NCBI GenBank assembly: GCA_945903265.1
Contig: CAMDNQ010000030.1
Coordinates: 1-35,948 of the forward strand
DNA from: Candidatus Sulfopaludibacter sp. SbA3
GTDB taxonomy: Bacteria > Acidobacteriota > Vicinamibacteria > Vicinamibacterales > UBA2999
DNA length: 35,948 bases
Direction: 5' to 3'
The translations under genes were made by a program, and so were the position numbers. The notes below the pieces were generated by a model. It saw only the letters and a list, made by a program, of their open reading frames with translations, ran no database searches and had not been told where the DNA came from. Shown one piece after another: positions 1,784 through 22,736 of this stretch. The stretch's first letter is position 1; the number at the start of each line of letters is the position of its first letter.

Positions 1784-1812
1784 CAGTCGGTCCTTTCAGT
1801 TTGAAGGCTCGC

Positions 1813-2493: not shown

Positions 2494-2521
2494 CCCTTGT
2501 GTCCAGAGGGCGCAGTCCGAT

Positions 2522-2788
2522 CTACGTCCTTTCAGTAATGCAGTCGTAGGCGAAATCGGTGAACTCCGAAAGGGAAACCCCAGCCGTCACAACATCTTTC
2601 CCTGCTTTAGACCGGACGTGTCCCTCGGAAAGCTGGAAAGCGTTGCATCCCGGTCTGGTGTGGCCGCGAAATTGGATCAGTGCGATGTCAAGGGATGGGT
2701 GCGGCCTGACGTCGAGGTTTACCGTGCCGTCAATCGATGAACTGTGTTCGCAGTTCCACCGTGACGGCCGCGGTGTAGCATACTTTTT
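2522..2788 (-). pseudogene. Possible degraded protein-coding remnant, trypsin-like-protease flavour
   Basis: Most of the roughly 430 bp gap between two genes (2494-2921) is filled by this remnant. A minus-strand frame is open from 2788 to a stop at 2522 with no good start. It reads like real protein: IDGTVNLDVRPHPSLDIALI, then FQLSEGHVRSKAGKDVVTAG and LSEFTDF. 'HPSLDIALI' and 'GKDVVTAGVSLSEF' resemble the Asp-containing and following strands of trypsin-like peptidase domains. Just upstream, a different frame (ISATILKKVCYTAAVTVELR) also looks protein-like and ends at the same 'FID', as if one gene had been frameshifted. The family guess is weak. No other feature is visible in the gap. Confidence 0.25.
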
Positions 2789-2921
2789 TCAAGATCGTTG
2801 CGGAGATGCCACTCCTTCTGCTTGCCGCGACCGGCAGCGAGATCGTGTTGATCGGTAAGTGATTATTGCGCTCTTCACGCTGGCGCCGACCGTACCCGCG
2901 GCGCAACACTTCCGTATGATG

Positions 2922-3335
2922 TTAGAAATAGCGCGCCATCATTTCTTCCGCCTGTGGAATGGCGCCGAAGCCGAACTTCTCGTACAAACCGTGGGCGTCG
3001 CGCGTCCGGAGCAGCATGAGGCGAATGCCGCCCAACTCCGGATGCTCAACCATCGCCTTCACGATGGCCTTGCCGACGCCGCGACTCTGAAATTCTGGAA
3101 ACACGATGATGTCCGCGAGATACGCGAACGTGGCGTAGTCGGTAATGACGCGCCCAAAGCCAACCTGCTGCCCCGCCTGATACGCACCGAAGCTAAGCGA
3201 GTTCTTGATCGAGAGTTCAACAGTGGCCCGCGACCGGCCCGGCGCCCAGTACGACGCGCTCAAGTGGCGATGAACGAGATCGATATCCAGGCGCGCGGGA
3301 TCCGTCGAAATCTCAACGTCCGGGAGTGTTGTCAC
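2922..3335 (-). CDS. GNAT-family N-acetyltransferase
   Basis: A 137-residue protein with the GNAT fold: a short N-terminal half, then ATFAYLADIIVFPEFQSRGVGKAIVKAM, which contains the beta4 strand and the acetyl-CoA pyrophosphate-binding QSRGVG loop (Q/R-x-x-G-x-G/A). The C-terminal part LMLLRTRDAHGLYEKFGF is the usual 'A..FYEK.GF' end. Such proteins transfer an acetyl group from acetyl-CoA to an amine; the substrate cannot be read from sequence. The start is GTG 3335, chosen because a -10-like TACGAT ends only 6 nt upstream and nothing resembles a Shine-Dalgarno. It stands alone between two non-coding stretches. Confidence 0.85.
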   Translation of the reverse strand: MTTLPDVEISTDPARLDIDLVHRHLSASYWAPGRSRATVELSIKNSLSFGAYQAGQQVGFGRVITDYATFAYLADIIVFPEFQSRGVGKAIVKAMVEHPELGGIRLMLLRTRDAHGLYEKFGFGAIPQAEEMMARYF

Positions 3336-3341
3336 GCGGGG

Positions 3342-3347
3342 ATCGTA
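3342..3347 (-). promoter_or_regulatory. -10 box of the GNAT gene, leaderless arrangement
   Basis: Minus-strand TACGAT lies 6 nt before the GTG start. The predicted transcription start would fall on or next to the start codon. No clear -35 is seen. Same arrangement as alaS, rpsT, leuS and others in this window. Confidence 0.45.
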
Positions 3348-3362
3348 TCAGGAGGGCGGGAG

Positions 3363-3620
3363 CCGGTCAGGCGTGTCGGCGAGCCGCCGACCTGCGCGGC
3401 ATGCCGAGGTGCGTCAGGCGTGAAGTCGAGCGAAGCGATTCTTCAGCGTGTCTCCCGGCAACGCGTTCGAGTTGCAACGAGCCAGCTCGGACGTTTTGAG
3501 CCGTGTGACAGATGTCGTATCGAGGCAGCAACTAGACGCGCGGACAGCGTCAGGTAGAGAGCGGAGCGAGACTTCCGGCATGCCGTCGCGGGAGCGCGGC
3601 TCGCCGACATGCCTGACCGG
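3363..3620. repeat. Large imperfect inverted repeat in a 350-bp gene-free gap
   Basis: Between the GNAT and GlcG genes (3336-3686) there is no convincing gene. Positions 3363-3387 and 3596-3620 are inverted copies of a 25-nt sequence with one mismatch. Similarity continues inward: both arms next carry CGGCATGCCG (near 3398 and 3577). The element is about 258 bp with a roughly 200-bp spacer and encodes no obvious protein. It may be a MITE-like or folded RNA element. Its nature is unknown. Confidence 0.5.
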
Positions 3621-3686
3621 CTGGGTGCGTAGGCGGGTCCGCGACTCGCTGGCACCTGCCTCGTCGCGGAGCCGCCCTACTTCCGA

Positions 3687-4181
3687 CTAGTTCGACTTCA
3701 GAAGGTCGGCGACTTTCGCGACGCCGGCCCGCGCGCAGGCGTCGTCGATGTCGAGGGTCGAGCCGGCGCTGCCGACCGCGCCGATGGTGTCGGTGCCGAC
3801 CTGAATCGGGATGCCGCCACTCAGCGCCAGGATGTCGTGCAGGTCGCGCTGCGCGGCGCGTGCCGGGTCGCTGAGCGTGCGCTCCTGGAATTCCTTCGTG
3901 GAGACCCGGAACATGCGCGCGGTGTAGGCCTTGCGACGGGCCATTTCCAGCATCTGCGACGTCGCCTGCTCGTTGCGCAGCAGCACAAGAACGTCCCCCG
4001 CCCGATCGACGACCGCCGCAGCGGTGTTGTAGCCCTTCGCCTTGCACTCGGCGAGCGTCGCCTCGGCAATTGCCTGCGCCATGCCGAGCGACAAGGTCCG
4101 TTGCATGACGACCCCTTGCGCGTGCGCCGGCGTTAGTGCGATGAGAACGAATCCAACGGCGAGCACTGCAATGAACTGCAC
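3687..4181 (-). CDS. Exported GlcG/HbpS-family (DUF336) protein
   Basis: A 164-residue protein with an N-terminal signal peptide (about 1-21, ending AHA-Q). Then comes a single GlcG/HbpS domain: LSLGMAQAIAEATLAECKAKG, AAAVVDRAGDVLVLLRNEQA, the Ala/Arg-rich helix with KAYTAR, and the GGIPIQVGTDTIGAVGSAGS loop. The family binds haem or small ligands (HbpS) or sits in glycolate operons (GlcG); here there is no glycolate gene nearby, so a periplasmic haem or redox-linked role is only a guess. The start is GTG 4181, with GGAGG 4 nt upstream (4186-4190). It is the second minus-strand gene after DUF4126, separated by about 90 bp carrying a palindrome. Confidence 0.85.
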   Translation of the reverse strand: MQFIAVLAVGFVLIALTPAHAQGVVMQRTLSLGMAQAIAEATLAECKAKGYNTAAAVVDRAGDVLVLLRNEQATSQMLEMARRKAYTARMFRVSTKEFQERTLSDPARAAQRDLHDILALSGGIPIQVGTDTIGAVGSAGSTLDIDDACARAGVAKVADLLKSN

Positions 4182-4196
4182 GGGGCCTCCCTGATC

Positions 4197-4216
4197 GCGC
4201 AGGCTGAAGCCTGCGC
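4197..4216. repeat. Short extragenic palindrome (CGCAGGCT type)
   Basis: GCGCAGGCT-GA-AGCCTGCGC is a near-perfect palindrome with a 2-nt centre, between the DUF4126 and GlcG genes. There is no T-run after it in the direction of transcription, so it is not a normal terminator. Next to it 'TCCTAGTG' occurs twice (4225-4232 and 4254-4261). It looks like a dispersed extragenic palindrome. Confidence 0.55.
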
Positions 4217-4272
4217 TCTACGTTTCCTAGTGCTGCAGCTCGCGCACTGCGTCTCCTAGTGACGTCGTGAGA

Positions 4273-4914
4273 TTATGGCCGGACGACGGGCCGGCCGGCG
4301 AGGCGATTCCACTGCCCGGCGGCAAGGCCCCGGATGCCCGCAATCTCACGGCGTACGAGGCGAATCACCTTCGGGATTAGCCAGAGCGCAAATCCGACCA
4401 GCAGGATCACAGCCGCCAGCGCCAGCAGCGGGTACTGCACGGCCAGCCAGACGCCGCCGAGGACGAGCCCGTCTTCCGCGAGGCTCAGGCCGATATTCGA
4501 AAACGGCTCCGGGCTGTGATTCGCGACGATTCGCGTCCCCGCCTTGGTCGAATGGCTCGAGAGCGCGATTCCGCCGCATAGCAGCGCCGCGCCAAGCTTG
4601 ACGGCGGGACTGACGTCGCCCATGGCGGTGGCCGCCAGTACGCCGGCGCCCAGCGGGCGGATGAACGTGTGGAGGCCGTCCCACATGGTGTCGACCCACG
4701 GGACTTTGTCGGCGACGAACTCCACTGTGTAGATGACGCCGGCGAGAATGAGGATGGGCGTCTGGGCCAGCACGTCCAGCGAGCTGAGCGACTGCGGAAG
4801 CGTGAAGAAACCCCAGCGAATGCCGAGCCCGACGGCGAGCACCGTGGAGTAAAGACGGACGCCCGACACAAAGGCGAGCCCCATCAGCGTGCCGAGCGTG
4901 CTGAGTGCGTCCAT
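4273..4914 (-). CDS. DUF4126 membrane protein
   Basis: A 213-residue protein from ATG 4914 (MDALSTLGTLMGLAFVSGVRLYSTVLAVGL). It has several hydrophobic segments: about 7-30, 48-64, 84-110 and a strong one near 168-188 (LLALAAVILLVGFALWLIP). The body matches the DUF4126 family: GxRLYxTVLxxGL at the start, PWVDTMWDGLHTFIRPLGAG and the SSHSTKAGTRIVANHSPEPFSN loop. The function of the family is unknown; it probably sits in the inner membrane. A longer reading upstream would run into the promoter of rsmE, so I reject it. A CATACT -10-like box lies 7 nt before the ATG. It is divergent from rsmE. Confidence 0.85.
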   Translation of the reverse strand: MDALSTLGTLMGLAFVSGVRLYSTVLAVGLGIRWGFFTLPQSLSSLDVLAQTPILILAGVIYTVEFVADKVPWVDTMWDGLHTFIRPLGAGVLAATAMGDVSPAVKLGAALLCGGIALSSHSTKAGTRIVANHSPEPFSNIGLSLAEDGLVLGGVWLAVQYPLLALAAVILLVGFALWLIPKVIRLVRREIAGIRGLAAGQWNRLAGRPVVRP

Positions 4915-7840: not shown

Positions 7841-8971
7841 ATGCACGTCAACGATCTTCTGAAAATCGCCGTCGAACGGGGCGCGTCGGACCTGCATCTG
7901 AAGGCGGGCAGCTACCCGATGATGCGGGTGCGGGGCGAACTGACGCCCATCTCGCAGGACAAGCGATTCGACCACGACGACATGATGGCCATCCTCGCCG
8001 CCATCCTGCCGACGGCGCTGCGTGAGCGCTTCAAGGACAGCCACGAGGTGGACCTCGCCTACAGCGTCGCTGGACTCGGGCGCTTCCGCTGCAACGCGTT
8101 CCAGCAGCGCGGCACCATCGGCATGACGCTCCGCGTCATCCCTGTTCGCGTCCAGAACATCCAGGAGCTATTCCTGCCGCCGGTGCTCAAGACGATCGCC
8201 CACGAGGAACGCGGACTCGTGCTCGTCACGGGCACCACCGGCTCCGGCAAGAGCACCACGCTCGCGTCGATCATCGACGAGATCAACACGAACCGCACGG
8301 TCAACGTGATGACGATCGAGGATCCGATCGAGTATCTGCACCGCGATAAGCGGTCGATCATCTGCCAGCGCGAGGTCGGAACGGACACGAGCTCGTTCGC
8401 CAACGCGCTGCGAAGCGCATTGCGGCAGGATCCGGACGTCATCCTCGTCGGTGAAATGCGGGACTTCGAGACAATCGAAACCGCCCTGCACGCGGCGGAA
8501 ACCGGCCACCTCGTGTTTTCGACGCTGCACACGGTTGACGCGACGGAGACCATCAACCGGATCGTCTCGGTCTTCACGCCGCACCAGCAGCTGGCCAGCG
8601 TGCTGCGCGCCGTCGTCTCACAGCGGCTCATCCCGAAGGCGGACGGCAAGGGCCGCGTGCCGGCTGTCGAAGTCATGATTGCCACGCCGTTCATCCGCGA
8701 ATGCATCATCGACGGTGAACGGACGAAGCTCATTCCGGGCGCCATCGCGCAGGGCACGTCGCAGTACGGTATGCAGACGTTCGATCAGTCGATCTTCTCG
8801 TTGTTCGAGCAGGGACTGATCGCGCAGGACGAAGCGCTCCGCTGGGCGTCGAGCCCCGACGAGTTCAAGCTGCGGCTGCAGGGCGTCACCAGCACCGCCG
8901 ACGCGGCGCGCGACGAAATGGCGCGCTCGGCCACCGGAGGAACGGGTCCCACCATTACGCGCGGCTTCTAG
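7841..8971 (+). CDS. pilT: PilT-type retraction ATPase (type IV pilus)
   Basis: A 376-residue secretion-type ATPase. The N-terminal PAS-like domain starts MHVNDLLKIAVERGASDLHLKAG. The RecA-like domain has Walker A GTTGSGKST (131-139), an Asp box around MTIEDPIEYLH, Walker B in RQDPDVILVGEMRD, and a His box in AAETGHLVFSTLHT. The AIRNLIRE-type C-terminal motif of classical PilT is not obvious; the related stretch here is VMIATPFIRECI. It is expected to power pilus retraction at the inner membrane. No pilus structural genes are in the window, which is common for pilT. It sits between ilvE and recX and shares one base with the recX start. Confidence 0.9.
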   Translation: MHVNDLLKIAVERGASDLHLKAGSYPMMRVRGELTPISQDKRFDHDDMMAILAAILPTALRERFKDSHEVDLAYSVAGLGRFRCNAFQQRGTIGMTLRVIPVRVQNIQELFLPPVLKTIAHEERGLVLVTGTTGSGKSTTLASIIDEINTNRTVNVMTIEDPIEYLHRDKRSIICQREVGTDTSSFANALRSALRQDPDVILVGEMRDFETIETALHAAETGHLVFSTLHTVDATETINRIVSVFTPHQQLASVLRAVVSQRLIPKADGKGRVPAVEVMIATPFIRECIIDGERTKLIPGAIAQGTSQYGMQTFDQSIFSLFEQGLIAQDEALRWASSPDEFKLRLQGVTSTADAARDEMARSATGGTGPTITRGF

Positions 8972-9447
8972 TGGCTGACGCGTACATCACGGGCCTGCGG
9001 ATGCTCGCACGGCGTGAGCTGAGCGAAGCGCAGGTCCGTCAGCGGCTCACCCGCAAGGAATTTCAACCCGAGGAGATTGACGCTGCCGTCGAACGGCTGC
9101 GCGGCAATCGGTCGCTCGACGATCGCCGCACGGCGCTCGCCTGCGCGCGCACCGAGGCGCTGGTCAAGCGCCGGGGACGGATGCGTGTGCTGCGGCAGGT
9201 CGAATCGCTCGGCATCGATCGCGAGATCGCGCGGGCCGCGGTGGCTGAGGTCTTCGCGGACGTGGACGAGGACGCCACGATCGAGAACGCGATCGACCGG
9301 CGCCTGCGAACGCGTCCAGACAGCGCTCGCCCCACGCCCGCCGACCTGCGGCGCGTGCAGCAGTACCTGCTTCGGCAGGGTTTTGATTCCGGAAAGATTG
9401 GGAACGCGGTGCGGCGGCGGCTCAGGGAACCGGCACGAGACGCTTGA
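8971..9447 (+). CDS. recX: Regulatory protein RecX
   Basis: A 158-residue, all-helical, arginine-rich protein made of RecX-type three-helix repeats: AYITGLRMLARRELSEAQVRQRL, then RNRSLDDRRTALACAR-like and LRRVQQYLLRQGFDSGKIGNAVRR repeats. RecX binds RecA filaments and modulates recombination. The start is GTG 8971, whose first base is the last base of the pilT stop (TAGTG), so translation is coupled. recA is not next to it. In many bacteria recX is followed by alaS; here the alaS gene lies 10.6 kb further on, after the TIR block. The 3' end overlaps the convergent TIR gene by 26 bp. Confidence 0.85.
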   Translation: MADAYITGLRMLARRELSEAQVRQRLTRKEFQPEEIDAAVERLRGNRSLDDRRTALACARTEALVKRRGRMRVLRQVESLGIDREIARAAVAEVFADVDEDATIENAIDRRLRTRPDSARPTPADLRRVQQYLLRQGFDSGKIGNAVRRRLREPARDA

Positions 9448-11638
9448 GTTCCTCGAACCAGTTCACGACGACGTTGATCTGCGTGGCGGCCGCAGGTTCA
9501 TCCTTCACCATCAGGAAGCGCTGCCCATCGCGCGTCACGTCGTAGGTGACGCCGGTCAGCGGAAACGTGCTCGCGAGATACGGCCCGTCGAACAGCATGG
9601 CCGGCCGGCCGGCTGAGAAACCTCCACTTGTCTCCACAGGCACGGCCAGCATCTGGCTGCCGTTTCGGTAGAACAGTTCCCGCCCGTTCGGGTTCCAGAG
9701 CGGCTCGATGCCGCCGTCTGTCGAAATCTGCCACTTGCCGCCGGGGCCTGGGAACGGCTGGACGTACACCTCCGGCCGGCCCGATTCTCCGGAGACGTAT
9801 GCCATCCAGCGCCCGTCCGGCGAGAATCGCGGCGCGCCTTCGGTGGCGGGCGTCGCCAGAAACGGCGTCCGCTTCCGGCCGTCGATCGACAGCACCCAGA
9901 TGTCGCGCAGGGTCTTGGCGTCGTTGCGTGTGAAGGCCAGGAACCGGCCGTCCGGTGAAAAGGACTGCGCGAGATCTGCGATCCCGTCGGGTGGGGTCAC
10001 GAGTTCGTCTCCGCCGCTCCCGTCGGCTCGCTGCCAGAAGAGGCTCGCCGGTGGTCCGGCCCTGCTGGTTCGCACCACGATACGCGTGCCGTCGGGCGTC
10101 CAGGCCGGCGAATCGTTCTGCGTGCCCGTGAACGTCAGGCGCGTCAGGGTGCCGCGCGCGACGTCATGGATCCAGGTCTGTCCGTCCAGTTCGACCGCCA
10201 CCCGCCCGCCGTCTGGCGACAGGCGCGGCCAGTCGTAGGCGCGGGCCGGCACGGCAAGCGCCTGCTCCGCGCCGCTGCGCGTGACCCACACGAGCCGGCG
10301 CTCGAACGCGCCGGAGCCGGCCACGTAGAGCAGCGTCCCGGTATTCGAGAAGCTGTAATAGGGGAAGCCCGCGCTCGTCTGGAGTACGCCCTGGACAACG
10401 GGGATCCCCGTCCCCGTGATAGTTCCCGCCGCGAGATCGAACGGAACAGCAAAGAGCGTCCCCGCCTGGACGTAGACGAGGTGCCCCGTGGGCAAATAGG
10501 CCGGAGCCACCGCATTCTCCACCAGATCGCGCGCCTCGCCGGTCGACGGATCGACAAGAACGACGGTGGCGGAGTCCGGCGTCGGAGCCCGCAGCACGGT
10601 GTACAGCAGGCGTCCGTCCGGCAGGCCGTACGGCATCCGATGGTTGCCCTCTCCCCCGGCTCGCTGTGTGAGCGACCGTGGCTCGCCGCCGTTCTCCGGG
10701 ATCCGGAACAATCCCTGCGGCGACCCGAGCGTCATCTCTCCGGCCGCCCAGTAGGCGCCAACAGGGAAACCTCCGGCCAGGAGCCGGACCGACGCTCCGC
10801 CTTCAATCGGCACCTTGTGCAGCGACTCGACGGTTGAATAGCCGATCCAGCGCGCATCAGGCGAAAAGAACGGAGCGGAGGCGCCGGCAGCGGTTGACAG
10901 CACCTGTACGTCGCCGGTGTCGATGCGCCGAGTCACCAGCTCGTAAATCGTTCCCCGGAGGCGGACGTACGCCATGCGGGTCCCATCCGGAGAAATCACG
11001 ACCGACGAACCGACGTTGGCGCTGAGCGGAACCACCAGCCTTTCCCCGCCGGCCATCGGGACGACGAAACGCATGACCTGGGCTGAAGCCGGTGTCGATG
11101 GCTTCAGGCTCCAGCCGGCGACACCGGCAAGAAGTGCGACGGCGACGGCCGTGGCGCCAATCGGCACCCACTGACGCGCGCGCCCCTTTGTCCTGGGCCT
11201 GGCGGGACGGGATACTGGCGCCGCCGGCGTACCCGCAGTCGCACCAAGCAGCGTGACGACCGCGGCGGCCACCTGCGGCACCGACTTCGGCAGCGGCACG
11301 CCAAAGCCATCGGTCCAGTGATGCCGCGCCAGGTAGAAGCCAAGCGACTTGTTCGGCTGCACGTCCTCCGCGCGGAACGTGAAGATCGGTTTCTTTGAAG
11401 CGAACGCGTGATTGACTTCGTTGCCGACGTACGGCGACTCGTTGGCCGCGGCGGTGAGGACGAGCAGGAACGCGCCTGCGTTCGAGATCGCGTCGACGAT
11501 CGCTTCATCCCACTTCGCGCCGGGCGCCACGTCTCGCGGCGCGATCCAGCAGCGGACGCCCTGCGCCTCGAGGAGCGCACACACGTCCATCGCGACCGGC
11601 TGATCGTCCGAGGCGTAGGAGATGAAGAGCGTGTTCAT
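9422..11638 (-). CDS. TIR domain - TM - PD40 beta-propeller protein, copy 1
   Basis: A 738-residue protein. Residues 1-112 form a TIR_2-type domain: LFISYASDD (box 1), CWIAPRDVAPG and WDEAIVDAI. In SPYVGNEVNHAF, E74 corresponds to the glutamate needed for NAD cleavage in catalytic TIR domains. A linker rich in Pro/Arg leads to one transmembrane helix (about 157-176). The rest (185-738) is a PD40/WD40-like propeller with repeated 'SPDGrwiAyvS' units and the end GVTYDVTRDGQRFLMVKDE...WFEELK. In this genome type the same propeller is often fused to Ser/Thr kinases. By topology, the TIR domain is cytosolic and the propeller periplasmic. It is the last gene of four; its ATG overlaps the stop of copy 2 (ATGA). 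Confidence 0.9.
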   Translation of the reverse strand: MNTLFISYASDDQPVAMDVCALLEAQGVRCWIAPRDVAPGAKWDEAIVDAISNAGAFLLVLTAAANESPYVGNEVNHAFASKKPIFTFRAEDVQPNKSLGFYLARHHWTDGFGVPLPKSVPQVAAAVVTLLGATAGTPAAPVSRPARPRTKGRARQWVPIGATAVAVALLAGVAGWSLKPSTPASAQVMRFVVPMAGGERLVVPLSANVGSSVVISPDGTRMAYVRLRGTIYELVTRRIDTGDVQVLSTAAGASAPFFSPDARWIGYSTVESLHKVPIEGGASVRLLAGGFPVGAYWAAGEMTLGSPQGLFRIPENGGEPRSLTQRAGGEGNHRMPYGLPDGRLLYTVLRAPTPDSATVVLVDPSTGEARDLVENAVAPAYLPTGHLVYVQAGTLFAVPFDLAAGTITGTGIPVVQGVLQTSAGFPYYSFSNTGTLLYVAGSGAFERRLVWVTRSGAEQALAVPARAYDWPRLSPDGGRVAVELDGQTWIHDVARGTLTRLTFTGTQNDSPAWTPDGTRIVVRTSRAGPPASLFWQRADGSGGDELVTPPDGIADLAQSFSPDGRFLAFTRNDAKTLRDIWVLSIDGRKRTPFLATPATEGAPRFSPDGRWMAYVSGESGRPEVYVQPFPGPGGKWQISTDGGIEPLWNPNGRELFYRNGSQMLAVPVETSGGFSAGRPAMLFDGPYLASTFPLTGVTYDVTRDGQRFLMVKDEPAAATQINVVVNWFEELKRLVPVP

Positions 11639-13863
11639 TCCGTTGGCACGAGCCGCTTGAGCTCCTCGAACCAGTCCGCAATCACGTTGATCTGCGTCGC
11701 CGAGGTCGTCTCGTCCTTGACCATCAGGAAGCGCTGCCCGTCGCGCGTGATGTCGTAGGTCACGCCGGTCAGCGGGAACGTGCTCGCCAGGTAGTCGCCC
11801 TCGAAGATCAGCACGGGCCGATCCGCCGAGAACGTCCCTTGCGTCGTCACGGGCACCGCCATCATGCGCCTGCCGCTCCGATAGAACAGCTCACGGCCGT
11901 TCGGGTTCCAGAGCGGCTCGATGCCGCCGTCAGTCGAGATCTGCCACTTCCCGCCAGGACCGGGGAACGGCTGCACGTAGATTTCCGGCCGGCCTGACTC
12001 GCCGGAGACGTAGGCGATCCAGCGGCCGTCGGGCGAAAACCGCGCCGCGCCCTCGGTTGTCTGCGTGACCAGGAACGGCGTGCGCTTCCGGTCCTGCATC
12101 GACAGAATCCAGATATCGCGCAGCGTCTTGGGATCGGCGCGTATGAAGGCCAGGAACCGGCCGTCCGGCGAGAACGACTGCGCGAGATCGGCGACGCCGA
12201 CGGCGTCGGTCAACCGCTGGTCGCCTCCGCTGCCGTCCGCGCTCTGCCAGAACAGCCGGTTGGGCGGCCCCTCGCGGTTGGACCGCACCACAATCCGCGA
12301 GCCATCGGGCGTCCATGCTGGGGCGTCATTTGACGCGCCAGTGAACGTCAGGCGCGTCAGCGTGTCGCGCGCGAGATCATACGTCCAGACCTGCTGATCG
12401 ATCTCCACGGCGATCCGGCGGCCATCGGGCGATAGCCGAGGCCAGTCGTATCCCCGTGTCGGCGCCGGGAGCGGCTCCTCGATACCCCGGCGCGATACCC
12501 AGACGAGCCGGCGGGCCGTCGTGGCGTTGCCGGAGACGTACACCAGCGTGCCGGTCTCCGAGAGGCTGTAGTACGGAAGTCCGTTGCTCATCTGCAGAAT
12601 GCCCTGCAGAACCTGCTGCGGCTCGCTGGTCACCGCGAGCGTCTCGAGATCGAAGCCGGCGGCCAACAGCGCGCCGCCTTGCACGAAGACGAGATGGCCT
12701 GTGGGGGTATAGCGGGGCGCCACTCCCAGCGGGACGACTTCCCGGACAGTCCCCGTCGCCTGTTCGCGCACGAGGACGGGCCCCGTGAAATTCGGACCAC
12801 CGGTCGCACTGAAGAGGATCCCGCGGTTGCCGGGCAGCACGAATGGTGTCCGATGGTTCCCTACCCCCGGCACGGGCTGCGTGAGCTGCTGGAACGACCC
12901 ACCCCCCTCTGGGAGCTGCCGCAAACCATTGGCGCCGCCCACGGTGATCATCCGGTCGGACCCCCAGAACACGCCCCCTGTCGTGGCCAGGGAATCGACG
13001 TGGAGGGCATTCCCTCCCCGCGTCGGGGCCTTGTCGAACCCTGCCGCGGAGAAGAAGCCAATCCACTGCGAGTCTGGCGAGAAGATCGGCGCGGCAGCAC
13101 CCAGACTTCCCGCGACCGGAGTCGACTGGTCGTCATCAATCGGTCGGATGTAGATCTGCTGCACGCCGTTGCCCTGCGCCGAATACGCGAGGAATTTGCC
13201 GTCCGGCGAAATCGTGACTGACGAGGGCGGATCGAGCTGCTCGTTGATGAGCAGCTGAAACCCGTCAGGCATCCTGATCGTGAAGCGCATCACCTGTGAC
13301 GGGGATGGCTCGGGCGCTGGCTTCAGCGTCCAGACGGCTGGCGCCGCCACGAGAATCCCGGCAAGCAGGCCGGCGGCCAGCGGCACCAGCGGCAGGCGGC
13401 GCGTCCGCGGCTTCGGCGCCGGACGCGAGGTGCGTGGAGGGGCAACCGCCGCCACGCCTGGCTGCGCGCCAAGCAATGCCGTGACAGCCGCGGCCACCTG
13501 CGGCACCGTCTCCGGCAGCGGTCCCGTGAAGCCGTCGGTCCAGTGATGCCGCGCGAGATAGAAACTGAGCGACTTGCTCGGCTGCACGTCCTCCACCCGG
13601 AACGTGAAGATCGGCTTCTTCGCCGCAAACGCGTGATTCAGCTCGTTCTTGACGTAGGGGGATTCGTTGGCACCTGCGGTGAGCACCAGGAGAAACGCGC
13701 CGCTCGCGCCGATCGCATCGAGGATCGCTTCGTCCCAGACGGCGCCCGGCGACACGTCCCGCGGCGCAATCCAGCACGCCACGCCCTGCGCCTCGAGCAG
13801 CGCGCAGACCTCCATCGCGACTGCCTGGTCGGTGGAGGCGTACGAGATGAACAGCGTGTTCAT
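11635..13863 (-). CDS. TIR domain - TM - PD40 beta-propeller protein, copy 2
   Basis: A 742-residue paralogue with the same three-part build. The TIR domain (1-112) has FISYASTDQ, CWIAPRDVSPG and SPYVKNELNHAF with E74. A single hydrophobic helix lies at about 157-179 (LVPLAAGLLAGILVAAPAVW). The propeller starts at about 190 (MRFTIRMPDGFQLLI) and ends ITRDGQRFLMVKDETTSATQI. Compared with copies 1 and 3 the middle of the propeller diverges while the last 150 residues are nearly identical. Start and stop overlap the neighbouring copies by 4 nt (ATGA at both ends), indicating one polycistronic mRNA with coupled translation. The propeller probably senses something outside the inner membrane; its ligand is unknown. 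Confidence 0.9.
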   Translation of the reverse strand: MNTLFISYASTDQAVAMEVCALLEAQGVACWIAPRDVSPGAVWDEAILDAIGASGAFLLVLTAGANESPYVKNELNHAFAAKKPIFTFRVEDVQPSKSLSFYLARHHWTDGFTGPLPETVPQVAAAVTALLGAQPGVAAVAPPRTSRPAPKPRTRRLPLVPLAAGLLAGILVAAPAVWTLKPAPEPSPSQVMRFTIRMPDGFQLLINEQLDPPSSVTISPDGKFLAYSAQGNGVQQIYIRPIDDDQSTPVAGSLGAAAPIFSPDSQWIGFFSAAGFDKAPTRGGNALHVDSLATTGGVFWGSDRMITVGGANGLRQLPEGGGSFQQLTQPVPGVGNHRTPFVLPGNRGILFSATGGPNFTGPVLVREQATGTVREVVPLGVAPRYTPTGHLVFVQGGALLAAGFDLETLAVTSEPQQVLQGILQMSNGLPYYSLSETGTLVYVSGNATTARRLVWVSRRGIEEPLPAPTRGYDWPRLSPDGRRIAVEIDQQVWTYDLARDTLTRLTFTGASNDAPAWTPDGSRIVVRSNREGPPNRLFWQSADGSGGDQRLTDAVGVADLAQSFSPDGRFLAFIRADPKTLRDIWILSMQDRKRTPFLVTQTTEGAARFSPDGRWIAYVSGESGRPEIYVQPFPGPGGKWQISTDGGIEPLWNPNGRELFYRSGRRMMAVPVTTQGTFSADRPVLIFEGDYLASTFPLTGVTYDITRDGQRFLMVKDETTSATQINVIADWFEELKRLVPTE

Positions 13864-16118
13864 TCTGTCGGCACCAGCCGCTTCAGCTCCTCGAACCAGT
13901 TCACGACGACGTTGATTTGCGTCGCGGAGGTCGTCTCGTCCTTGACCATCAGAAACCGCTGTCCGTCGCGCGTCACGTCGTAGGTGACGCCGGTTAACGG
14001 GAACGTGCTCGCCAGGTACGACCCTTCAAACAGCACCGTGGGATGTCCGGCCGCGAACGTTCCCTGCGTCGTCACGGGAACCGCCATCATGCGCGTGCCG
14101 TTGCGGTAGAAGAGCTCGCGGCCGCTGGAGTTCCACGCTGGCTCGATGCCACCTTCGGTGGAAATCTGCCACTTGCCACCCGGACCGGGAAACGGCTGGA
14201 CAAAGATTTCGGGACGCCCAGATTCGTCCGATACGTACGCGATCCAGCGCCCGTCGGGTGAAAAACGCGCCGCGCCTTCGGTGGCCGGGGTCACGAGAAA
14301 CGGCGACCGCACTCTCCCCTCGACGGACAGCACCCAGATGTCCCGCAGCGTTTTCGGATCGGTGCGCCCGAACGCAAGCAGCCGTCCGTCCGGTGAGAAC
14401 GAGTGCGCGAGGTTGCCTACCTGATCCGCGGGACTGAGGCGCTCATCCCCGCCGCTGCCGTCCGCCATTTGCCAGAACATGGTGGCGGGCGGGCCTCCGC
14501 GATTGGATCGCACGGCGATCCGCATCCCGTCAGCGCTCCACGCCGGGCCATCGTTCTGGCTCCCCGTGAATGTCAGGCGGGTCATGGTCTCGCGCTTGAG
14601 ATCGTGCACCCACGTCTGGCCGTCGATCTCCACTGCCACGCGGCCGCCATCCGGTGAGAGGCGCGGCCAGTCGTACCCCTGAAGCGGAGCCACGAGCGGC
14701 TCTTCGACCCCGTTCCGCCCGACCCACACGAGCCTCCGGCTCGCGATCGCGGATCCGGACACGTACACCAGCGTGCCGGTGTTGGAAAAGCTGTAGTACG
14801 GATAGCCGGAGGCGGTCTGCAGGAGGCCTTGCAGCACCGCCACCGGGTTTCCAGTGGCCGTCATCGTCGCCAGATCGAACGGGAGAGCGAACAGCGTCCC
14901 GTTCTGGACGTAGACGATGTGTCCTGTCGGCGCATAAGCGGGCGCGGTTCCGGCTGCAATCAAGTCGCGCCGCTGGCCGCTTGCGACGTCGTACAACACT
15001 GTTCCCTGCGGGCCCTGGGCCGACGTCATGGTAAACAGCACCGCGCGGCCGCCGGGCAGCACGTGCGGGTGTCGATACGCACCAGCGGCCCCGACCGTAC
15101 CAGCATTCGGTACCAGAATTCGCTCCGGTCCCCCGCCTTCGGGAATCTGCAAGAGTCCCCTGGTTCCTCCCAGCACGATTGAGCCGTCGTTCACCCAATG
15201 CGCACCGCTCGAGCCACCCGTCGTGGTCACGCGCATGCCCACACCGCCGCCGACTGGCGCCTTCCACAGCCCCCCGATCGCCGTCATCCCGATCCAGCTC
15301 GCATCCGGCGAGAAAAACGGGCCGACGGCGCCGGCGCTGCCCGGTACGATCCGGGCGTCGGCGCTGTCAATCGGGCGCACGAGCGTCTCCTGCGTCCCGC
15401 CCCGCACGACGACGTAGGCGACGTACCTGCCGTCCGGGGAAATCACCACAGACGAGGGGCCAATGATTGGCTCCTGCACGGCGAGGCGCTCGCCGTCCGG
15501 GAGAGCGAGCGTGAATCGCACCACCTGCTGGGGCGCCACCGGAGGGGCCGGCTTCAGATACCACGCGGCCGCCCCGGCGAGCACAGCGACCGCGACGGCT
15601 CCGGCAGCCAGGCGCACCGGGCGGAGGTTCGATGACGTCTTTGCTTTCCGGGCCGGCGAGACCGGGCGCGGGGCTGCGACGACGGTCGCCACGCCGCTCG
15701 CCGCGCCGCTCGCCGCCGTGCCGAGCAGCGACGTGACGGCGGCGGCCACTTGCGGGACCGTCTGTGGCAGCGACCCTGTGAAGCCATCAGTCCAGTGGTG
15801 CCGCGCCAGGTAGAAGCCAAGCGACTTGTTCGGCTGCACGTCCTCCGCGCGGAACGTTAAAATCGGTTTCTTCGAAGCGAACGCGTGGTTGACTTCGTTG
15901 CCGACGTACGGCGACTCGTTGGCAGCGGCCGTGAGCACGAGCAGGAACGCGCCTGCGTTTGAGATCGCGTCGACGATCGCTTCATCCCACTTCGCGCCTG
16001 GCGCCACGTCGCGCGGCGCGATCCAGCACGCGACGCCTTGCGCCTCGAGCAGCGCGCAGACCTCCATCGCGACTGCCTGGTCGGTGGAGGCGTACGAAAT
16101 AAAAAGAGCGGAAGGCAT
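13860..16118 (-). CDS. TIR domain - TM - PD40 beta-propeller protein, copy 3 (mosaic)
   Basis: A 752-residue paralogue starting at ATG 16118 (MPSALFISYASTDQ); the frame is open further upstream, but that part is antisense-like reading of copy 4. The TIR glutamate is E75. The transmembrane helix is about 163-186 (VRLAAGAVAVAVLAGAAAWYL), followed by the propeller. Residues 1-31 match copy 2 (STDQAVAMEVC...GVAC), while residues 32-109 match copy 1 (VAPGAKWDEAIVDAISNAG, SPYVGNEV), also at DNA level. This points to gene conversion or unequal crossing-over between tandem copies. Copy 4 ends 2 nt before its start (TGA-AT-ATG). Confidence 0.9.
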   Translation of the reverse strand: MPSALFISYASTDQAVAMEVCALLEAQGVACWIAPRDVAPGAKWDEAIVDAISNAGAFLLVLTAAANESPYVGNEVNHAFASKKPILTFRAEDVQPNKSLGFYLARHHWTDGFTGSLPQTVPQVAAAVTSLLGTAASGAASGVATVVAAPRPVSPARKAKTSSNLRPVRLAAGAVAVAVLAGAAAWYLKPAPPVAPQQVVRFTLALPDGERLAVQEPIIGPSSVVISPDGRYVAYVVVRGGTQETLVRPIDSADARIVPGSAGAVGPFFSPDASWIGMTAIGGLWKAPVGGGVGMRVTTTGGSSGAHWVNDGSIVLGGTRGLLQIPEGGGPERILVPNAGTVGAAGAYRHPHVLPGGRAVLFTMTSAQGPQGTVLYDVASGQRRDLIAAGTAPAYAPTGHIVYVQNGTLFALPFDLATMTATGNPVAVLQGLLQTASGYPYYSFSNTGTLVYVSGSAIASRRLVWVGRNGVEEPLVAPLQGYDWPRLSPDGGRVAVEIDGQTWVHDLKRETMTRLTFTGSQNDGPAWSADGMRIAVRSNRGGPPATMFWQMADGSGGDERLSPADQVGNLAHSFSPDGRLLAFGRTDPKTLRDIWVLSVEGRVRSPFLVTPATEGAARFSPDGRWIAYVSDESGRPEIFVQPFPGPGGKWQISTEGGIEPAWNSSGRELFYRNGTRMMAVPVTTQGTFAAGHPTVLFEGSYLASTFPLTGVTYDVTRDGQRFLMVKDETTSATQINVVVNWFEELKRLVPTE

Positions 16119-16120: not shown

Positions 16121-17905
16121 TCAGTTCCCCGGCACACGCTGCCGCAATTCCTCCGCCCAGTTCAGCACCACGACGATGGACGGCGCCGAGTTCGATCCAC
16201 CGGTGCCGGCCTGTTTGACCATCAGGAACCGCTGCCCATCCGGGGCGATGTCGTAGGTGCGGCCCGGGTTGCCGCCATGGGAGAAATACCCCGTCGGGAC
16301 GAGGACAGACGGAACGGTTGCCGACCACATCTCGCCGCGCGCAACCCCGATGCGCATGAGCGCACCTGCCGGTGAGATGAAGAACAGCTCCTGACCGTTC
16401 GGGGACCACAGCGGCCGTGTGCCGCCGCCGGTGGATACCTGCCACTTGCCGGTCGTACCGTCGGGATACGGACGCACGTAGATCTCGAACGGTCCGGAGT
16501 CGTTCGCCTCGTACGCCAGCCAGCGTCCATCGGGAGAGATGATGCCGTTCTGCTCGGCAAACGGCGTCTGCACCAGATACCGGGGCTCGCCGCGCGGCAC
16601 GAGCTGAAGTTCCACGATGTCCGCACCTGTTGCCGCCGTGCGCTCCGTGAAGATGACGCGGTTCCCGTCCGGCGAAAGACCCGTCACGTCCTGCAGGACC
16701 TCGCTCCGGGTCAGCCGCTCGGGAGATCCGGTGCCGTCCGCCGCCTGCCGGAAGATGTTACGCAGGCCTTCACGATCGGAGCTGAAGACGACGTGCCGGC
16801 CGTCGGGCGTCCAGAGCGGATAGATATCCAGACCTGGATCGAACGTGAGTCTCCCGAGAGCCGCCCGCGCCAGATCCCACACCCAGATGTCGCTCGCCTG
16901 GTCGGAGCTGTAGAAGGCCACGCGCGTGCCGTCCGGCGACACCCGCGGATAGACGTACGCGCGGGACTGGGCGGCGATCGCACTTTCGCGCCCCTGCCGA
17001 TCGACCCACACCATCGTCCGCTGCGGCGTGGCGCTGCCCTCTCCCGGGACGTACGCGAGCGTGCCGTTCCCGGCCACGACGGCGTCCACGGCACCGAGAT
17101 CGGTGGCCATGACCTGCGCGACAACCGGCACCGCCGTACCGCGAATCTCCAGCCGCTCCAGGTCGAAGGCTGCGGCCTGCAGCGATCCGCCAACGGCATA
17201 CACGAGATGCCCGCTCGGCGCGTACTGGGCGTGCGTACCGCCGCGGACGAGGACTTTCTGTGCCCCGGTCTGCAGATCGAGCACGGCGATCGACGCCGCA
17301 TCGAGACTGCCGGTCAGGGGTCTGATGGTGAAGAGCACAGCGCGGCCGCCAGGGAGGACTTCGGGCCAGATGTGGTCGGCCTCTCCCTGGGACCGATCCG
17401 GTTGCGTCAGCACCGAGGGCGCGGCGCCCGCTCCCGCGGAACCGGGGTCGGCCGTCACCGCCAGAAGGCCCGTCGCCAGGCTGGTCGTATAGATGATCGT
17501 GTCGTCGGCCGCCCACGCCTGCCCGCGTGGCGTCCCATCAAGCTGTACCAGCGTGATCGCCGGCCCGCCTGTAATGGGAACTTTCTTCAGCGTGGCATTC
17601 GCGTCCACGAAACCCACCCATCGGCCGTCCGGCGAGACGAACGGCCCGCGAGGGTTTCCCGAGAACAGCACCAGCGGCTCCAGCGCCTCGAGCGCCCGGA
17701 CAAAGAGCTGGGTACCGTTGTTCCCGACGTACACGACGCGCGAGCCATCAGGCGTAATCGCGATGTCGCGATCGATGCCGTTGATGCTGAGGGCCGTCGC
17801 CGCCGGGGACGTGATCTGCAGCCGCATGACCGGCTGCGACACGATGGGACGCGTGTACGACAACCCAGCGCCGACCAGCAGCGCCGGCAGCCACGCCCGC
17901 CGCAA
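16121..17905 (-). CDS. TIR operon copy 4, TM plus propeller part (separated from its TIR part by a frameshift)
   Basis: A 594-residue frame that reads from a possible TTG 17905 through a hydrophobic stretch (LPALLVGAGLSY) into a PD40 propeller (VMRLQITSPAATALS ... SPDGRWVGFV ... YDIAPDGQRFLMVKQAG ... VVVLNWAEELRQ). It lies one base out of frame with the TIR frame 17748-18383. Joining the two at about 17880-17890 rebuilds a normal 20-residue helix like those of copies 1-3, so this was, or is, one gene. The propeller is clearly more diverged than in copies 1-3. Possible explanations are a sequencing error, a real inactivating insertion, or two separate proteins with TTG re-initiation. Confidence 0.7.
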   Translation of the reverse strand: MRRAWLPALLVGAGLSYTRPIVSQPVMRLQITSPAATALSINGIDRDIAITPDGSRVVYVGNNGTQLFVRALEALEPLVLFSGNPRGPFVSPDGRWVGFVDANATLKKVPITGGPAITLVQLDGTPRGQAWAADDTIIYTTSLATGLLAVTADPGSAGAGAAPSVLTQPDRSQGEADHIWPEVLPGGRAVLFTIRPLTGSLDAASIAVLDLQTGAQKVLVRGGTHAQYAPSGHLVYAVGGSLQAAAFDLERLEIRGTAVPVVAQVMATDLGAVDAVVAGNGTLAYVPGEGSATPQRTMVWVDRQGRESAIAAQSRAYVYPRVSPDGTRVAFYSSDQASDIWVWDLARAALGRLTFDPGLDIYPLWTPDGRHVVFSSDREGLRNIFRQAADGTGSPERLTRSEVLQDVTGLSPDGNRVIFTERTAATGADIVELQLVPRGEPRYLVQTPFAEQNGIISPDGRWLAYEANDSGPFEIYVRPYPDGTTGKWQVSTGGGTRPLWSPNGQELFFISPAGALMRIGVARGEMWSATVPSVLVPTGYFSHGGNPGRTYDIAPDGQRFLMVKQAGTGGSNSAPSIVVVLNWAEELRQRVPGN

Positions 17906-18383
17906 CGAACGACGCCGGGCGGTGCCACGGTGTCCGCTTCCGCGCCTTCACGACTGTCCGCGGCAGCACATCGCCAACGACGGCGGCGCCGAGCAGCGCG
18001 GTCACCGCCGCCGCAAGCTGCGCCACCTTGACGTCGAGGGGGGGTGGAAAGCCGTCCGTCCAGTGGTGGCGGGCCAGGTAGAAGCCGAGCGACTTGCTCG
18101 GCTGCACGTCCTCCGCGCGGAACGTGAAGATCGGCTTCTGCGCCGTGAAGGCGTGGTTCAACTCGTTCTTGACGAAGGGCGATGCATTGGCCGGAGCCGT
18201 GAGAATCAGCAGGAAGGCGCCGCTCGAGGTAATCGCGTCGACAATCGCTTCGTCCCACTGCGCGCCCGGGGCGACGTCACGGGGGGCAATCCAGCACCGG
18301 ACGCCCTGCGCCTCCAGCAGGGCGCAGATCTCCATCGCGACCGCCTGGTCATCCGAGGCGTAGGAGACGAATAGATTGTTCAT
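17748..18383 (-). CDS. TIR operon copy 4, TIR part (first gene of the operon)
   Basis: From ATG 18383 the frame gives a full TIR domain: LFVSYASDD, CWIAPRDVAPG, SPFVKNELNHAF with E74, and LARHHWTDGF to about residue 111. A basic linker follows, then the first half of the transmembrane helix (ASFVAAGVAAGA). After about residue 170 the frame continues as arginine/histidine-rich nonsense to a stop at 17748, so the real C-terminus lies in the other frame (16121-17905). If translated as is, it would be a soluble or weakly anchored TIR enzyme without a sensor. A minus-strand TACAAT lies 18 nt upstream. It is divergent from the SLOG-membrane gene. Confidence 0.75.
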   Translation of the reverse strand: MNNLFVSYASDDQAVAMEICALLEAQGVRCWIAPRDVAPGAQWDEAIVDAITSSGAFLLILTAPANASPFVKNELNHAFTAQKPIFTFRAEDVQPSKSLGFYLARHHWTDGFPPPLDVKVAQLAAAVTALLGAAVVGDVLPRTVVKARKRTPWHRPASFVAAGVAAGAAGRRWVVVHASHRVAAGHAAADHVPGGDGPQHQRHRSRHRDYA

Positions 18384-18441
18384 GGCCGAGGAGCCGCGCG
18401 AATTGTAGCCCGGAACGCGCCGGTGCTATCGTCGCGAGCGC
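18384..18441. promoter_or_regulatory. Divergent promoter between the TIR operon and the SLOG-membrane gene
   Basis: Only 58 bp separate the two start codons. The minus strand has TACAAT at 18402-18407 for the TIR operon. The plus strand has TATCGT at 18427-18432, 9 nt before ATG 18442. No operator-like repeat is obvious. The shared spacer makes co-regulation likely. Confidence 0.45.
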
Positions 18442-20042: not shown

Positions 20043-22736
20043 ATGACCGCGAACGAGATTCGCCGCTCGTACCTGAAATATTTCGAGCGGCACGGCCACC
20101 GCATCGCCCCCAGCTCTCCCCTGGTGCCGCACGAGGACCCGACACTGCTCTTCACCAACGCGGGGATGAACCAGTTCAAGGACGTCTTCCTCGGCCGCGA
20201 GAAGCGCGACTACGCGCGCGCGACGACGGCCCAGAAGTGCATGCGGGTGAGCGGCAAGCACAACGACCTGGAAAACGTCGGCCCGTCGCTCCGCCATCAC
20301 ACCTTCTTCGAGATGCTCGGCAATTTTTCGTTCGGCGACTACTTCAAGAAGGACGCAATCCCGTTTGCCTGGACGCTGCTGACCGACGAGTGGAAGCTGC
20401 CGGCGGACAAGCTGTTCGCGACGATTTTCAAGGGCGACGCCGCGGTGCCGCGCGATGCGGAGGCACACGCCATCTGGTCGAAGTTCCTGCCGGCGATCCG
20501 GATCGGCGAACTCGGCGCCGCCGACAACTTCTGGCAGATGGGCGAAACCGGCCCCTGCGGCCGCTGCTCGGAGATCTACTACTACCGGGGTGCCGGGATT
20601 CCGTGCGGTGAAGAAGCCGGCGGCAGAGCGTGCCGCGGCCTCGAATGCAGCTGCGATCGCTACATCGAAATCTGGAACAACGTGTTCATGGAATTCGACC
20701 GGCAGGCGGACGGCACGCTCAACCCGCTGCCGGCGCCGTCCATCGACACCGGCATGGGCCTCGAGCGCGTCACGGCGGTGCTCCAGGGCCATCTGTCGAA
20801 CTACGACACCGACCTGTTCACGCCGCTCCTGGCGGCCATCGGCGAACGGGCCGGCTCCACACACACCGGGTCGATGTCGGCCACCGACGTGTCCATGCGC
20901 GTCGTCGCGGACCACACCCGGTCGATGACGTTCCTGATTGCCGACGGCGTCGTGCCCTCGAACGAGTGGCGCGGCTATGTGCTGCGCAAGATCATGCGGC
21001 GCGCGATGCGCCACGGAAAGCGGCTCGGGGTGACGCAGCCCTTCCTCCACACGCTCATCGACACGCTCGTGCGCGACTTCGGGCAGGCGTATCCGGAGCT
21101 GAAGACCGAACGCGAGTCGATCGTCCGGGTGGTACGAAGTGAGGAAGAGCGGTTCAGCGCGGTCCTCGCCGAGGGGCTTCCCAAGCTCGAAGAGGTGCTC
21201 GATCAGGCGGCGGCAGCAGGCCGACCCGTTCCGGGTGAGGCGGCGTTCCGCCTGTATGACACGTTCGGCCTGCCGCGCGATTTCATCGAGGACATGGTCG
21301 AGGAGCGCCGCCTGACGCTCGACCGCGAGGGCTTCGACCGCGCGATGGAGGGCCAGCGCGACAAGGCGCGGGCGAAGAGCAAATTCGGCGGGGCTGCCGC
21401 CGGAGAGGCAACCGTCTGGCAGACACGCCCGGAACTCGCGCAGGTAGCAGATGCCTTCCGTGGCTACGATGCCACCGCGGTGAACACCCAGATCATCGAG
21501 CTTCTTGACGCGAAACGGAGCCACGTCGAGCGCCTCGAGCAGGGTGCAGAGGGCTTCGTCGCGCTGACAGAGACGCCGTTCTATCTCCAATCGGGCGGCC
21601 AGGTCTCAGATACCGGCACGTTGAGCGCGCCCGGCGGCGACGCGGACGTGACGGACGTCGTGAAAGCCCCGGGAACGCTGCCCCGGTTTCACGCGATCAG
21701 GGTGACCCGCGGCGCGCTGGCTCACCGCGATCTGGTCACGGCGGAAGTCACGTCAGCCCTGCGCGACGCCACCCGCCGCAATCACACGGCGACGCACCTG
21801 CTGCACGCCGCCCTGCGCCAGGTCCTCGGCGCGCACGTCAAGCAGGCAGGGTCGCTCGTCGCGCCGGATCGGCTCCGATTCGACTTCGCACACTTCGGCC
21901 CGGTCACCCGCGAACAGCAGCTCGACATCGAGCGCATCGTGAACGAGCAGATCGTTCGCAACACCCCTGTGCAGACCGACGTGAAGAACACCCAGGATGC
22001 GATTGCCGCGGGAGCGATGGCACTCTTCGGCGAGAAATACGGGGATCGCGTCCGTGTGGTGTCGGTGCCGGGATTCAGCGTGGAGCTCTGTGGCGGCACC
22101 CATGTCCGCGCGACCGGCGACATCGGCTTGTTCGCGATTGTGTCCGAAAGCGGCGTCGCCGCCGGCACGCGGCGCATCGAGGCGATCACGGGCCTCGAGT
22201 CCCTTCAGGTCTTCCAGCGGAACCGCGATCAGATCGCGCAGCTGGCGGAGGCGCTCAACACGAAACCCGACGAGCTCGTACCACGCCTGTCAGCCATACA
22301 GGATGAGAGCAAGCGCCTCACTCGCGAGCTGCAGCAGGCGCGCATGAAGGCAGCGATGGGAGGGGCCGGTGGCGCCGGTACGACAGCAGCCGATGACACG
22401 ATCGATATCGGGGGCGTGAAGCTGGTCGCGCGCGAGGTCACCGGCCTCGACAAGGACGGACTGCGGACGCTCGTCGATCAGCAGCGCGACCGCATCAAAA
22501 GCGGCGTCGTCATTTTTGCCGCTCCGTCAGATGGCAAGGTGACCGTCGTCGTGGGCGTGACACCCGACCTGACAAAACGAGTATCCGCCGGTCAGGTGGT
22601 CAAGCAGCTGGCGCCGATCGTCGGCGGCGGCGGAGGCGGGCGGCCGGACTTCGCGGAAGCCGGCGGCAAGGATCCCTCGAAGATCCAGGAGATGCTCGCG
22701 GCCAGCCGTGGCATCGTCGAAAAACTTTTGCAATAA
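20043..22736 (+). CDS. alaS: Alanyl-tRNA synthetase
   Basis: An 897-residue full-length AlaRS. The class II catalytic core starts MTANEIRRSYLKYFERHGH and includes LLFTNAGMNQFKDVFLG, RHHTFFEMLGNFSFGDYFK (motif 2) and IDTGMGLERV (motif 3). The editing domain shows HTATHLLHAAL and LCGGTHVRATGDIG, the His/Cys zinc site that clears mischarged Ser- and Gly-tRNA(Ala). The C-terminal oligomerisation domain has the usual GGGGGGRPDFAEAGGKDPSK. An insert with several cysteines (GIPCGEE...CRGLECSCDRY) near residue 185 is seen in some bacterial AlaRSs. It charges tRNA(Ala) in the cytosol. Confidence 0.97.
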   Translation: MTANEIRRSYLKYFERHGHRIAPSSPLVPHEDPTLLFTNAGMNQFKDVFLGREKRDYARATTAQKCMRVSGKHNDLENVGPSLRHHTFFEMLGNFSFGDYFKKDAIPFAWTLLTDEWKLPADKLFATIFKGDAAVPRDAEAHAIWSKFLPAIRIGELGAADNFWQMGETGPCGRCSEIYYYRGAGIPCGEEAGGRACRGLECSCDRYIEIWNNVFMEFDRQADGTLNPLPAPSIDTGMGLERVTAVLQGHLSNYDTDLFTPLLAAIGERAGSTHTGSMSATDVSMRVVADHTRSMTFLIADGVVPSNEWRGYVLRKIMRRAMRHGKRLGVTQPFLHTLIDTLVRDFGQAYPELKTERESIVRVVRSEEERFSAVLAEGLPKLEEVLDQAAAAGRPVPGEAAFRLYDTFGLPRDFIEDMVEERRLTLDREGFDRAMEGQRDKARAKSKFGGAAAGEATVWQTRPELAQVADAFRGYDATAVNTQIIELLDAKRSHVERLEQGAEGFVALTETPFYLQSGGQVSDTGTLSAPGGDADVTDVVKAPGTLPRFHAIRVTRGALAHRDLVTAEVTSALRDATRRNHTATHLLHAALRQVLGAHVKQAGSLVAPDRLRFDFAHFGPVTREQQLDIERIVNEQIVRNTPVQTDVKNTQDAIAAGAMALFGEKYGDRVRVVSVPGFSVELCGGTHVRATGDIGLFAIVSESGVAAGTRRIEAITGLESLQVFQRNRDQIAQLAEALNTKPDELVPRLSAIQDESKRLTRELQQARMKAAMGGAGGAGTTAADDTIDIGGVKLVAREVTGLDKDGLRTLVDQQRDRIKSGVVIFAAPSDGKVTVVVGVTPDLTKRVSAGQVVKQLAPIVGGGGGGRPDFAEAGGKDPSKIQEMLAASRGIVEKLLQ

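Follow-up and report, generated by a model that had tools for sequence, protein, structure and literature searches.

The window analysed here is an entire contig (C30, 35,948 nucleotides) of the draft genome of Candidatus Sulfopaludibacter sp. SbA3, which comprises 3.52 Mb in 45 contigs. Its minus strand carries four TIR–propeller genes (copies 1–4) arranged head to tail, with the following features.

9422..11638, minus strand: copy 1, TIR–TM–PD40 propeller receptor, 738 aa (TIR_2 4e-20, PD40 6e-25)
11635..13863, minus strand: copy 2, TIR–TM–PD40 propeller receptor, 742 aa (TIR_2 2e-19, PD40 7e-29)
13860..16118, minus strand: copy 3, TIR–TM–PD40 propeller receptor with a mosaic TIR, 752 aa
13899..15521, minus strand: propeller part of copy 3, approximately residues 200–740 (PD40 matches and all-beta model)
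15558..15608, minus strand: predicted TM helix of copy 3, model residues 171–187 (AlphaFold2 helix with pLDDT under 50; hydrophobic stretch)
16121..17905, minus strand: copy 4 propeller, in another frame than its TIR (594 aa ORF; orthologue of MEKU01 copy C, 83% aa identity)
17748..18383, minus strand: copy 4 TIR and linker in a single frame (211 aa ORF; TIR_2 8e-20)

The coordinates of copy 3 agree with those in the initial annotation. Copies 2 and 1 overlap by ATGA. Copy 4 as a whole extends over approximately 16121–18383, and its TIR and propeller frames switch near 17890. This change of frame may reflect a pseudogene, a sequencing error, or a programmed shift; RNA folding at the site was no better than that of shuffled sequences (z +1.2). 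The TIR_2 profile (PF13676) scores 71–73 bits in all four copies against a curated cut-off of 28, and it spans residues 5–112 of copy 1, 5–113 of copy 2, and 6–114 of copy 3. The array is flanked by recX (8971–9447) on one side and by alaS (20043–22736) and a 523-aa gene with no match in Pfam on the other.

The predicted structure of the copy 3 TIR domain (pLDDT 91.9) matched known structures with Z scores of 14.5–18.2 among the 50 matches listed, nearly all of which are TIR domains, including those of SPARTA (chains with Z 14.5–18.2), SARM1, and AbTir (15.6). The only non-TIR protein among these 50 is a deoxyribosyltransferase (Z 14.6). In known TIR NADases, the α-C glutamate is catalytic. 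The corresponding column (E75 in copy 3) is Glu in 47 of 47 TIRs in our alignment, which covers 41 of 79 loci fetched by the patterns CWIAPRDV and CA[QL]LEAQGV and holds nine of the 11 array copies (without E and F of the sister array described below). A profile alignment also places E75 opposite a Glu of Cat1, which is matched at E 5e-7. The whole-protein AlphaFold2 model of copy 3 is weaker (pLDDT 71.7, pTM 0.45). It shows an all-beta C-terminal half, and Foldseek aligned it, at low TM-scores, with tricorn protease and TolB among other structures. Basic residues flanking a TM helix mark the cytoplasmic side, and those located before the predicted helix suggest that the TIR domain lies inside and the propeller outside. 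PADLOC 2.0.0, run on copies 1 and 3 and on the TIR frame of copy 4, gave weak matches that are mostly confined to the TIR domain; the copy 4 frame also matched Cmr3 weakly.

An order-level search with the copy 1 TIR found matches at E 1e-15 in six of 162 genomes. Close relatives (65–90% identity) are present only in the window's genome and in MEKU01 (G013, 'Acidobacteria bacterium RIFCSPLOWO2_02_FULL_67_21'), which belongs to the same family, and the TIRs of the other four genomes are at 38–45%. In a sample of 396 genomes from the phylum, five matched at E 1e-20, with identities of 40–43% apart from the window's genome; MEKU01 is absent from these matches and was presumably not drawn into the sample. 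MEKU01 has seven TIR copies, labelled A–G, spread over two contigs, which may be adjacent because two of their ends have 105 of 113 bases in common. The flanking genes of MEKU01 correspond to those of the window (alaS 74%, the 523-aa gene 64%, recX 68%, and a T2SSE gene 82% identical), and further matches were found to an SGL-like gene on the alaS side and to two more genes on the recX/T2SSE side. Since the flanks agree on both sides, the arrays of the window and MEKU01 sit at the same locus. Copies E, F, and G contain an extra base, frame changes, or an N run (L042 at approximately 9640; L042 from 13338 on into L062; L062 from 3542 on). Counting copy 4 as well, four of the 11 copies in the two arrays appear disrupted or gapped, and part of the array may therefore be decaying or mis-assembled. 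One more TIR–PD40 gene is present in L068, a MAG filed as Proteobacteria. There, the TIR–PD40 gene (120–2201, minus strand) adjoins a gene (2335–4602, plus strand) that, by eye, apparently encodes a different TIR followed by TPR-like repeats.

The propellers have diverged more than the TIR domains, which are the more conserved part in all pairs compared. Propellers of copies 1–3 are 57–62% identical to one another. The propeller of copy 4 shares 83% identity with that of C, 53% with that of B, and 30–39% with the remaining six compared (F and G left out), and the other between-genome propeller pairs are likewise at 30–39% (again leaving out F and G). The array genes have PD40 repeats and a TM–propeller half homologous to Pkinase–PD40 proteins, and among the matches to copy 3, 25 proteins with a kinase motif share this propeller half. 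In a tree of 12 TIR-linked propellers and these 25 proteins, whose kinase sample was selected by similarity to copy 3, monophyly of the TIR-linked propellers was rejected (delta logL 287), and the propellers of B, C, and copy 4 cluster with two kinase proteins (support 98–100). Among 99 genomes, the top-scoring relative of the C propeller outside the arrays is 63% identical, whereas its array neighbour B is at 57%; the corresponding values for the A propeller are 49% against 41% for D, and the top-scoring relative of the E propeller outside the arrays is at 55% over the first 383 residues of E. A kinase motif was found in 12 of the 14 examined relatives of C, A, and E within the stretch examined. 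Pfam detected both Pkinase and PD40 in all six of these relatives that were submitted and in the two proteins clustering with B and C. A fuller FastTree with the 14 relatives of C, A, and E required at least eight changes between TIR and kinase, and trees with shuffled labels gave a mean of 11.0 (range 8–12). The nesting of TIR-linked propellers at several places among kinase propellers indicates that TIR and kinase outputs were swapped repeatedly. Copy-3-like propellers are common (73 of 99 relatives) and the TIR form is rare, from which we infer a change from the kinase form to the TIR form.

The TIR domain of copy 3 is a mosaic of those of copies 1 and 2, as the initial annotation had proposed. 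Its two main tracts are as follows.

16029..16097, minus strand: copy-2-like tract of the copy 3 TIR, codons 7–29 (counterpart 13777–13845)
15786..16022, minus strand: copy-1-like tract of the copy 3 TIR, codons 32–110 (counterpart 11309–11545)

Codons are numbered according to copy 1, and copy 3 starts with one additional codon. Over codons 4–130, copies 1 and 2 differ at 82 sites; copy 3 agrees with one or the other at 74, and the eight sites matching neither were excluded. Up to codon 31, copy 3 is copy-2-like at 14 and copy-1-like at one of 15 distinguishing sites. The relation is reversed in codons 32–112, where 44 of 48 sites are copy-1-like and four are copy-2-like (Fisher p 1.1e-9 for a switch at codon 31/32, all sites). 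At silent sites only, the ratio of copy-1-like to copy-2-like changes from 1:6 to 20:2 (p 3.8e-4), and a run permutation of the copy 3 sites gave p 5e-5 for all sites (the lowest value possible with 20,000 shuffles) and p 0.003 for silent sites. Copies 2 and 3 differ at 2 of 75 bases in codons 7–31 and at 53 of 237 in codons 32–110, and copies 1 and 3 differ at 15 of 75 and 12 of 237 in the same ranges. Fourfold sites follow this pattern, with differences at 2 of 16 between copies 2 and 3 (codons 4–31) and 8 of 45 between copies 1 and 3 (codons 32–112), and fractions of 0.37–0.74 elsewhere in copies 1–3. In maximum-likelihood trees of 11 TIR copies, the AU test rejected the grouping of copies 1 and 3 over codons 5–31 (p-AU 0.005) and that of copies 2 and 3 over codons 32–112 (p-AU 0.0045); the SH test for the same two groupings was above 0.05 (0.079 and 0.054, respectively).

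The first break maps between window positions 16029 and 16022, immediately before the IAPRDV codons, and the matched parent changes within three codons. This agrees with the switch near the CWIAPRDV codons noted earlier, and the previously described match to copy 1 over residues 32–109 is borne out by the site counts and base differences. The match to copy 2, which had been assigned to residues 1–31, stands for codons 7–31; the tract begins at approximately codon 6–7, as copy 3 has diverging initial residues (MPSA). A uniform identity profile across the copies, with no break near residue 31, was looked for and is excluded by the distribution of the copy 3 sites. In codons 112–130, 8 of 12 decisive sites are copy-2-like, as counted from the site list without a separate test, and a second, weaker break near codon 111 (window 15780–15786) seems to end the copy-1-like tract.

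Such a hybrid gene could also have been made by unequal crossing-over during array growth, without short conversion tracts. The head-to-tail order of the copies suits this process, and the unit repeat runs on across the 3/2 and 2/1 junctions (63–90% ungapped identity upstream of copies 1 and 2, compared in ten steps of 60 bases). A single crossover would leave one break, however, and a second one appears to be present in copy 3, although its weak support speaks for crossing-over. Past the TIR, the silent sites are divided almost evenly, with 53 of 107 resembling copy 1 (p 0.12), which does not suit a single crossover, although all sites together give p 0.04. We consider it unlikely that copy 3 arose by crossing-over.

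The sister array contains similar tracts. MEKU01 copies B and C have no differences over 81 bases (codons 5–31) and 62 differences over 198 bases (31%) in codons 47–112, and copies D and G differ at just 12 of 198 bases in codons 47–112. The mean pairwise DNA identity in MEKU01 is 95–96% in windows of codons 12–34 and 65–77% from codon 44 to 106. The B and C tract may also cut across orthology: over codons 5–31, C is identical to its paralogue B (0/81) and differs from its orthologue copy 4 at 14 of 81 bases (p-AU for copy 4 with C, 0.055). All nine sites common to copy 4 and C and absent from copies 1–3 and B are located at codon 42 or beyond. TIR residues 17 and 22 are M and L in all four copies of the window, as in L068, and L and Q in all seven copies of MEKU01. 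These array-specific residues, found despite the orthologous propellers of copy 4 and C, indicate that the TIR ends evolve in concert.

Purifying selection alone might keep the TIRs alike, with the copy 3 pattern resulting from uneven constraint and no exchange. The higher conservation of the TIR than of the propeller in all pairs is in line with this, and CWIAPRDV is invariant in the 47 aligned TIRs, which counts for little because the loci were fetched with the same pattern. In addition, a pairwise tract test flags between-genome pairs (copy 4–G at the floor, copy 3–G, and others), so that uneven rates exist and add to the signals of this test, which covered 55 pairs with 2000 permutations each and no joint correction; our case does not rest on it. 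Constraint on the protein is difficult to reconcile with a switch at silent sites (p 4e-4) where the matched parent changes within three codons, or with B and C DNA that is identical over 81 bases and 31% different later, and we regard it as a very improbable sole cause. Equally little weight falls on an assembly artefact, in which the assembler would have joined reads of similar copies. Both genomes are drafts (45 contigs in the case of the window's genome), similar tandem copies are known to be difficult to assemble, and several copies are frame-shifted. However, the copy 3 tracts hold 2/75 and 12/237 differences and are thus 95–97% rather than 100% identical to their counterparts, which is unexpected for a chimera of the present copies, and similar tracts occur in the separate MEKU01 assembly. 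An artefact of this kind is accordingly hardly credible.

Concerted evolution of the TIR ends by gene conversion is the most likely explanation. Paralogues are unexpectedly close within bounded tracts, silent sites included, which is how gene conversion is recognised. The exchange of segments between tandem copies put forward in the initial annotation is thus supported by the silent sites, the reciprocal AU rejections, and the sister-array tracts. Within the window's genome, homogenisation is clear only for the copy 3 tracts. The AU test for its four copies as one group over codons 32–112 is marginal (p 0.053), as is that for copy 4 with C; identity among the four copies over codons 4–34 (83–87%) is no higher than that between genomes (84–86%); and between-genome pairs are flagged by the tract test. 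Fourfold differences in the TIR for pairs of this genome other than 2–3 and 1–3 are 0.37–0.54.

Past the TIR, each of copies 1–3 was tested in turn as the mosaic child. All sites gave p 0.035 for copy 1, 0.0004 for copy 2, and 0.04 for copy 3, and silent sites gave p 0.19, 0.80, and 0.12, respectively. An older exchange among these copies may have extended beyond the TIR. No sharp exchange tract was seen at the propeller ends of copies 1–3. The fourfold differences of the three pairs in the last two regions (codon columns 620–778) are 0.37–0.68, and the C-terminal motif NWxxEL is also present in 13 of the 25 kinase-type relatives. Family-wide constraint may thus suffice to explain the alike propeller ends, and the earlier proposal that exchange maintains them is not supported. 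Repeated sequence was also observed upstream of D, E, F, and G (L042, L062), with 89% identity between F and G over 393 bases and 85% between E and G over 156 bases; exchange may reach upstream as well.

A promoter-like motif is shared by part of the copies in both genomes.

18398..18412, minus strand: promoter-like motif CGGGCTACAATTCGC upstream of copy 4 (pattern match, common to five sister-array copies, one with a mismatch)

The pattern CGGGCTASAATYCGC has a single exact match in the window's genome, 5' of copy 4, and exactly four in MEKU01, 5' of A, C, D, and G; the match 5' of F deviates by one mismatch. Three other one-mismatch matches occur elsewhere across both genomes, and a reversed-pattern control gave 0. 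In the scan of both genomes, copies 1–3, B, and E had no upstream match of their own. The distribution of this motif suggests that part of the array is under common control.

Taken together, these data make it probable that copies 1–4 are tandem membrane TIR receptors whose TIR ends are gene-converted and whose propellers come from several receptor-kinase lineages, combining one TIR output with different sensors. Each copy would be a single-pass receptor with an N-terminal cytoplasmic TIR, one TM helix, and a C-terminal beta-propeller across the membrane, according to the predicted topology. Short gene-conversion tracts would move between the TIR ends of tandem copies. Copy 3 would now have two such tracts, one in common with copy 2 (at least 69 bp) and one in common with copy 1 (approximately 237 bp), and exchange in the MEKU01 array would leave very little variation at the beginning of the TIR. 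The propellers would meanwhile diverge, having been drawn from several lineages of the Pkinase–TM–PD40 receptor-kinase family, so that a single TIR output would be coupled to different sensors at this locus. A ligand bound by the propeller may cluster the TIR domains, and the clustered TIR may then cleave NAD or make an NAD-derived signal. The repertoire of sensors with one shared output suggested in the initial annotation fits this scheme and is strengthened by the several separate origins of the propellers, with both output and sensing being predicted functions.

A more tentative reading, possible but less probable than the receptor array itself, is that the locus is a receptor-diversifying site, in which a fixed cassette of promoter-like motif and TIR, kept alike by conversion, is repeatedly joined to new receptor-kinase propellers. 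If so, the bacterium would renew its sensors and retain one TIR output, as in the receptor gene clusters of animals and plants.

The closest parallel is the mammalian TLR1/TLR6 pair, in which gene conversion, acting independently in several species over a region of approximately 300 residues, limits divergence of the TM and most of the TIR, and the N-terminal part follows orthology (PMC2077338). Both systems are tandem TIR receptor paralogues with a converted signalling part and a diverging sensor, but TLR1/TLR6 have a C-terminal TIR and a leucine-rich-repeat sensor, and their abstract reports no output-domain swap (PMC2077338). Fungal NOD-like receptors, as described in PMC4986451, resemble the arrays in that related receptor halves carry swapped N-terminal effector domains and the family undergoes concerted evolution, but they have a central NOD ATPase, and concerted evolution is reported there for the repeat part. 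The acidobacterial Pkinase–TM–PD40 receptor kinases share the TM–propeller half (roughly 35–63% identity) and have an N-terminal kinase where the array copies have a TIR. SPARTA and Cat1, which are defence TIR NADases, and AbTir share the TIR fold (Cat1 by sequence profile) and the α-C glutamate. To our knowledge, none of these three is a TM–propeller receptor in a tandem array. The TIR–TM–PD40 architecture is not described in the text examined from four papers on bacterial conflict systems with TIR domains or propellers (PMC7159879, PMC8195603, PMC10907252, and PMC13174449), and no title or abstract beginning naming TIR–TM–PD40 arrays was listed in searches of open-access literature.

Mammalian TLR1/TLR6 thus provide a known case of conversion that preserves the TIR output as the sensors diverge. 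A like division of labour in bacterial TIR–propeller receptors, together with repeated TIR/kinase swaps, suggests a general route to receptor repertoires. The 11 copies in two genomes form a small natural set for testing sensor, output, and promoter apart. Outside the array, the window's genome has a fifth match to TIR_2, within an open frame of 489 aa (L001, G000:C22:37443-37844).
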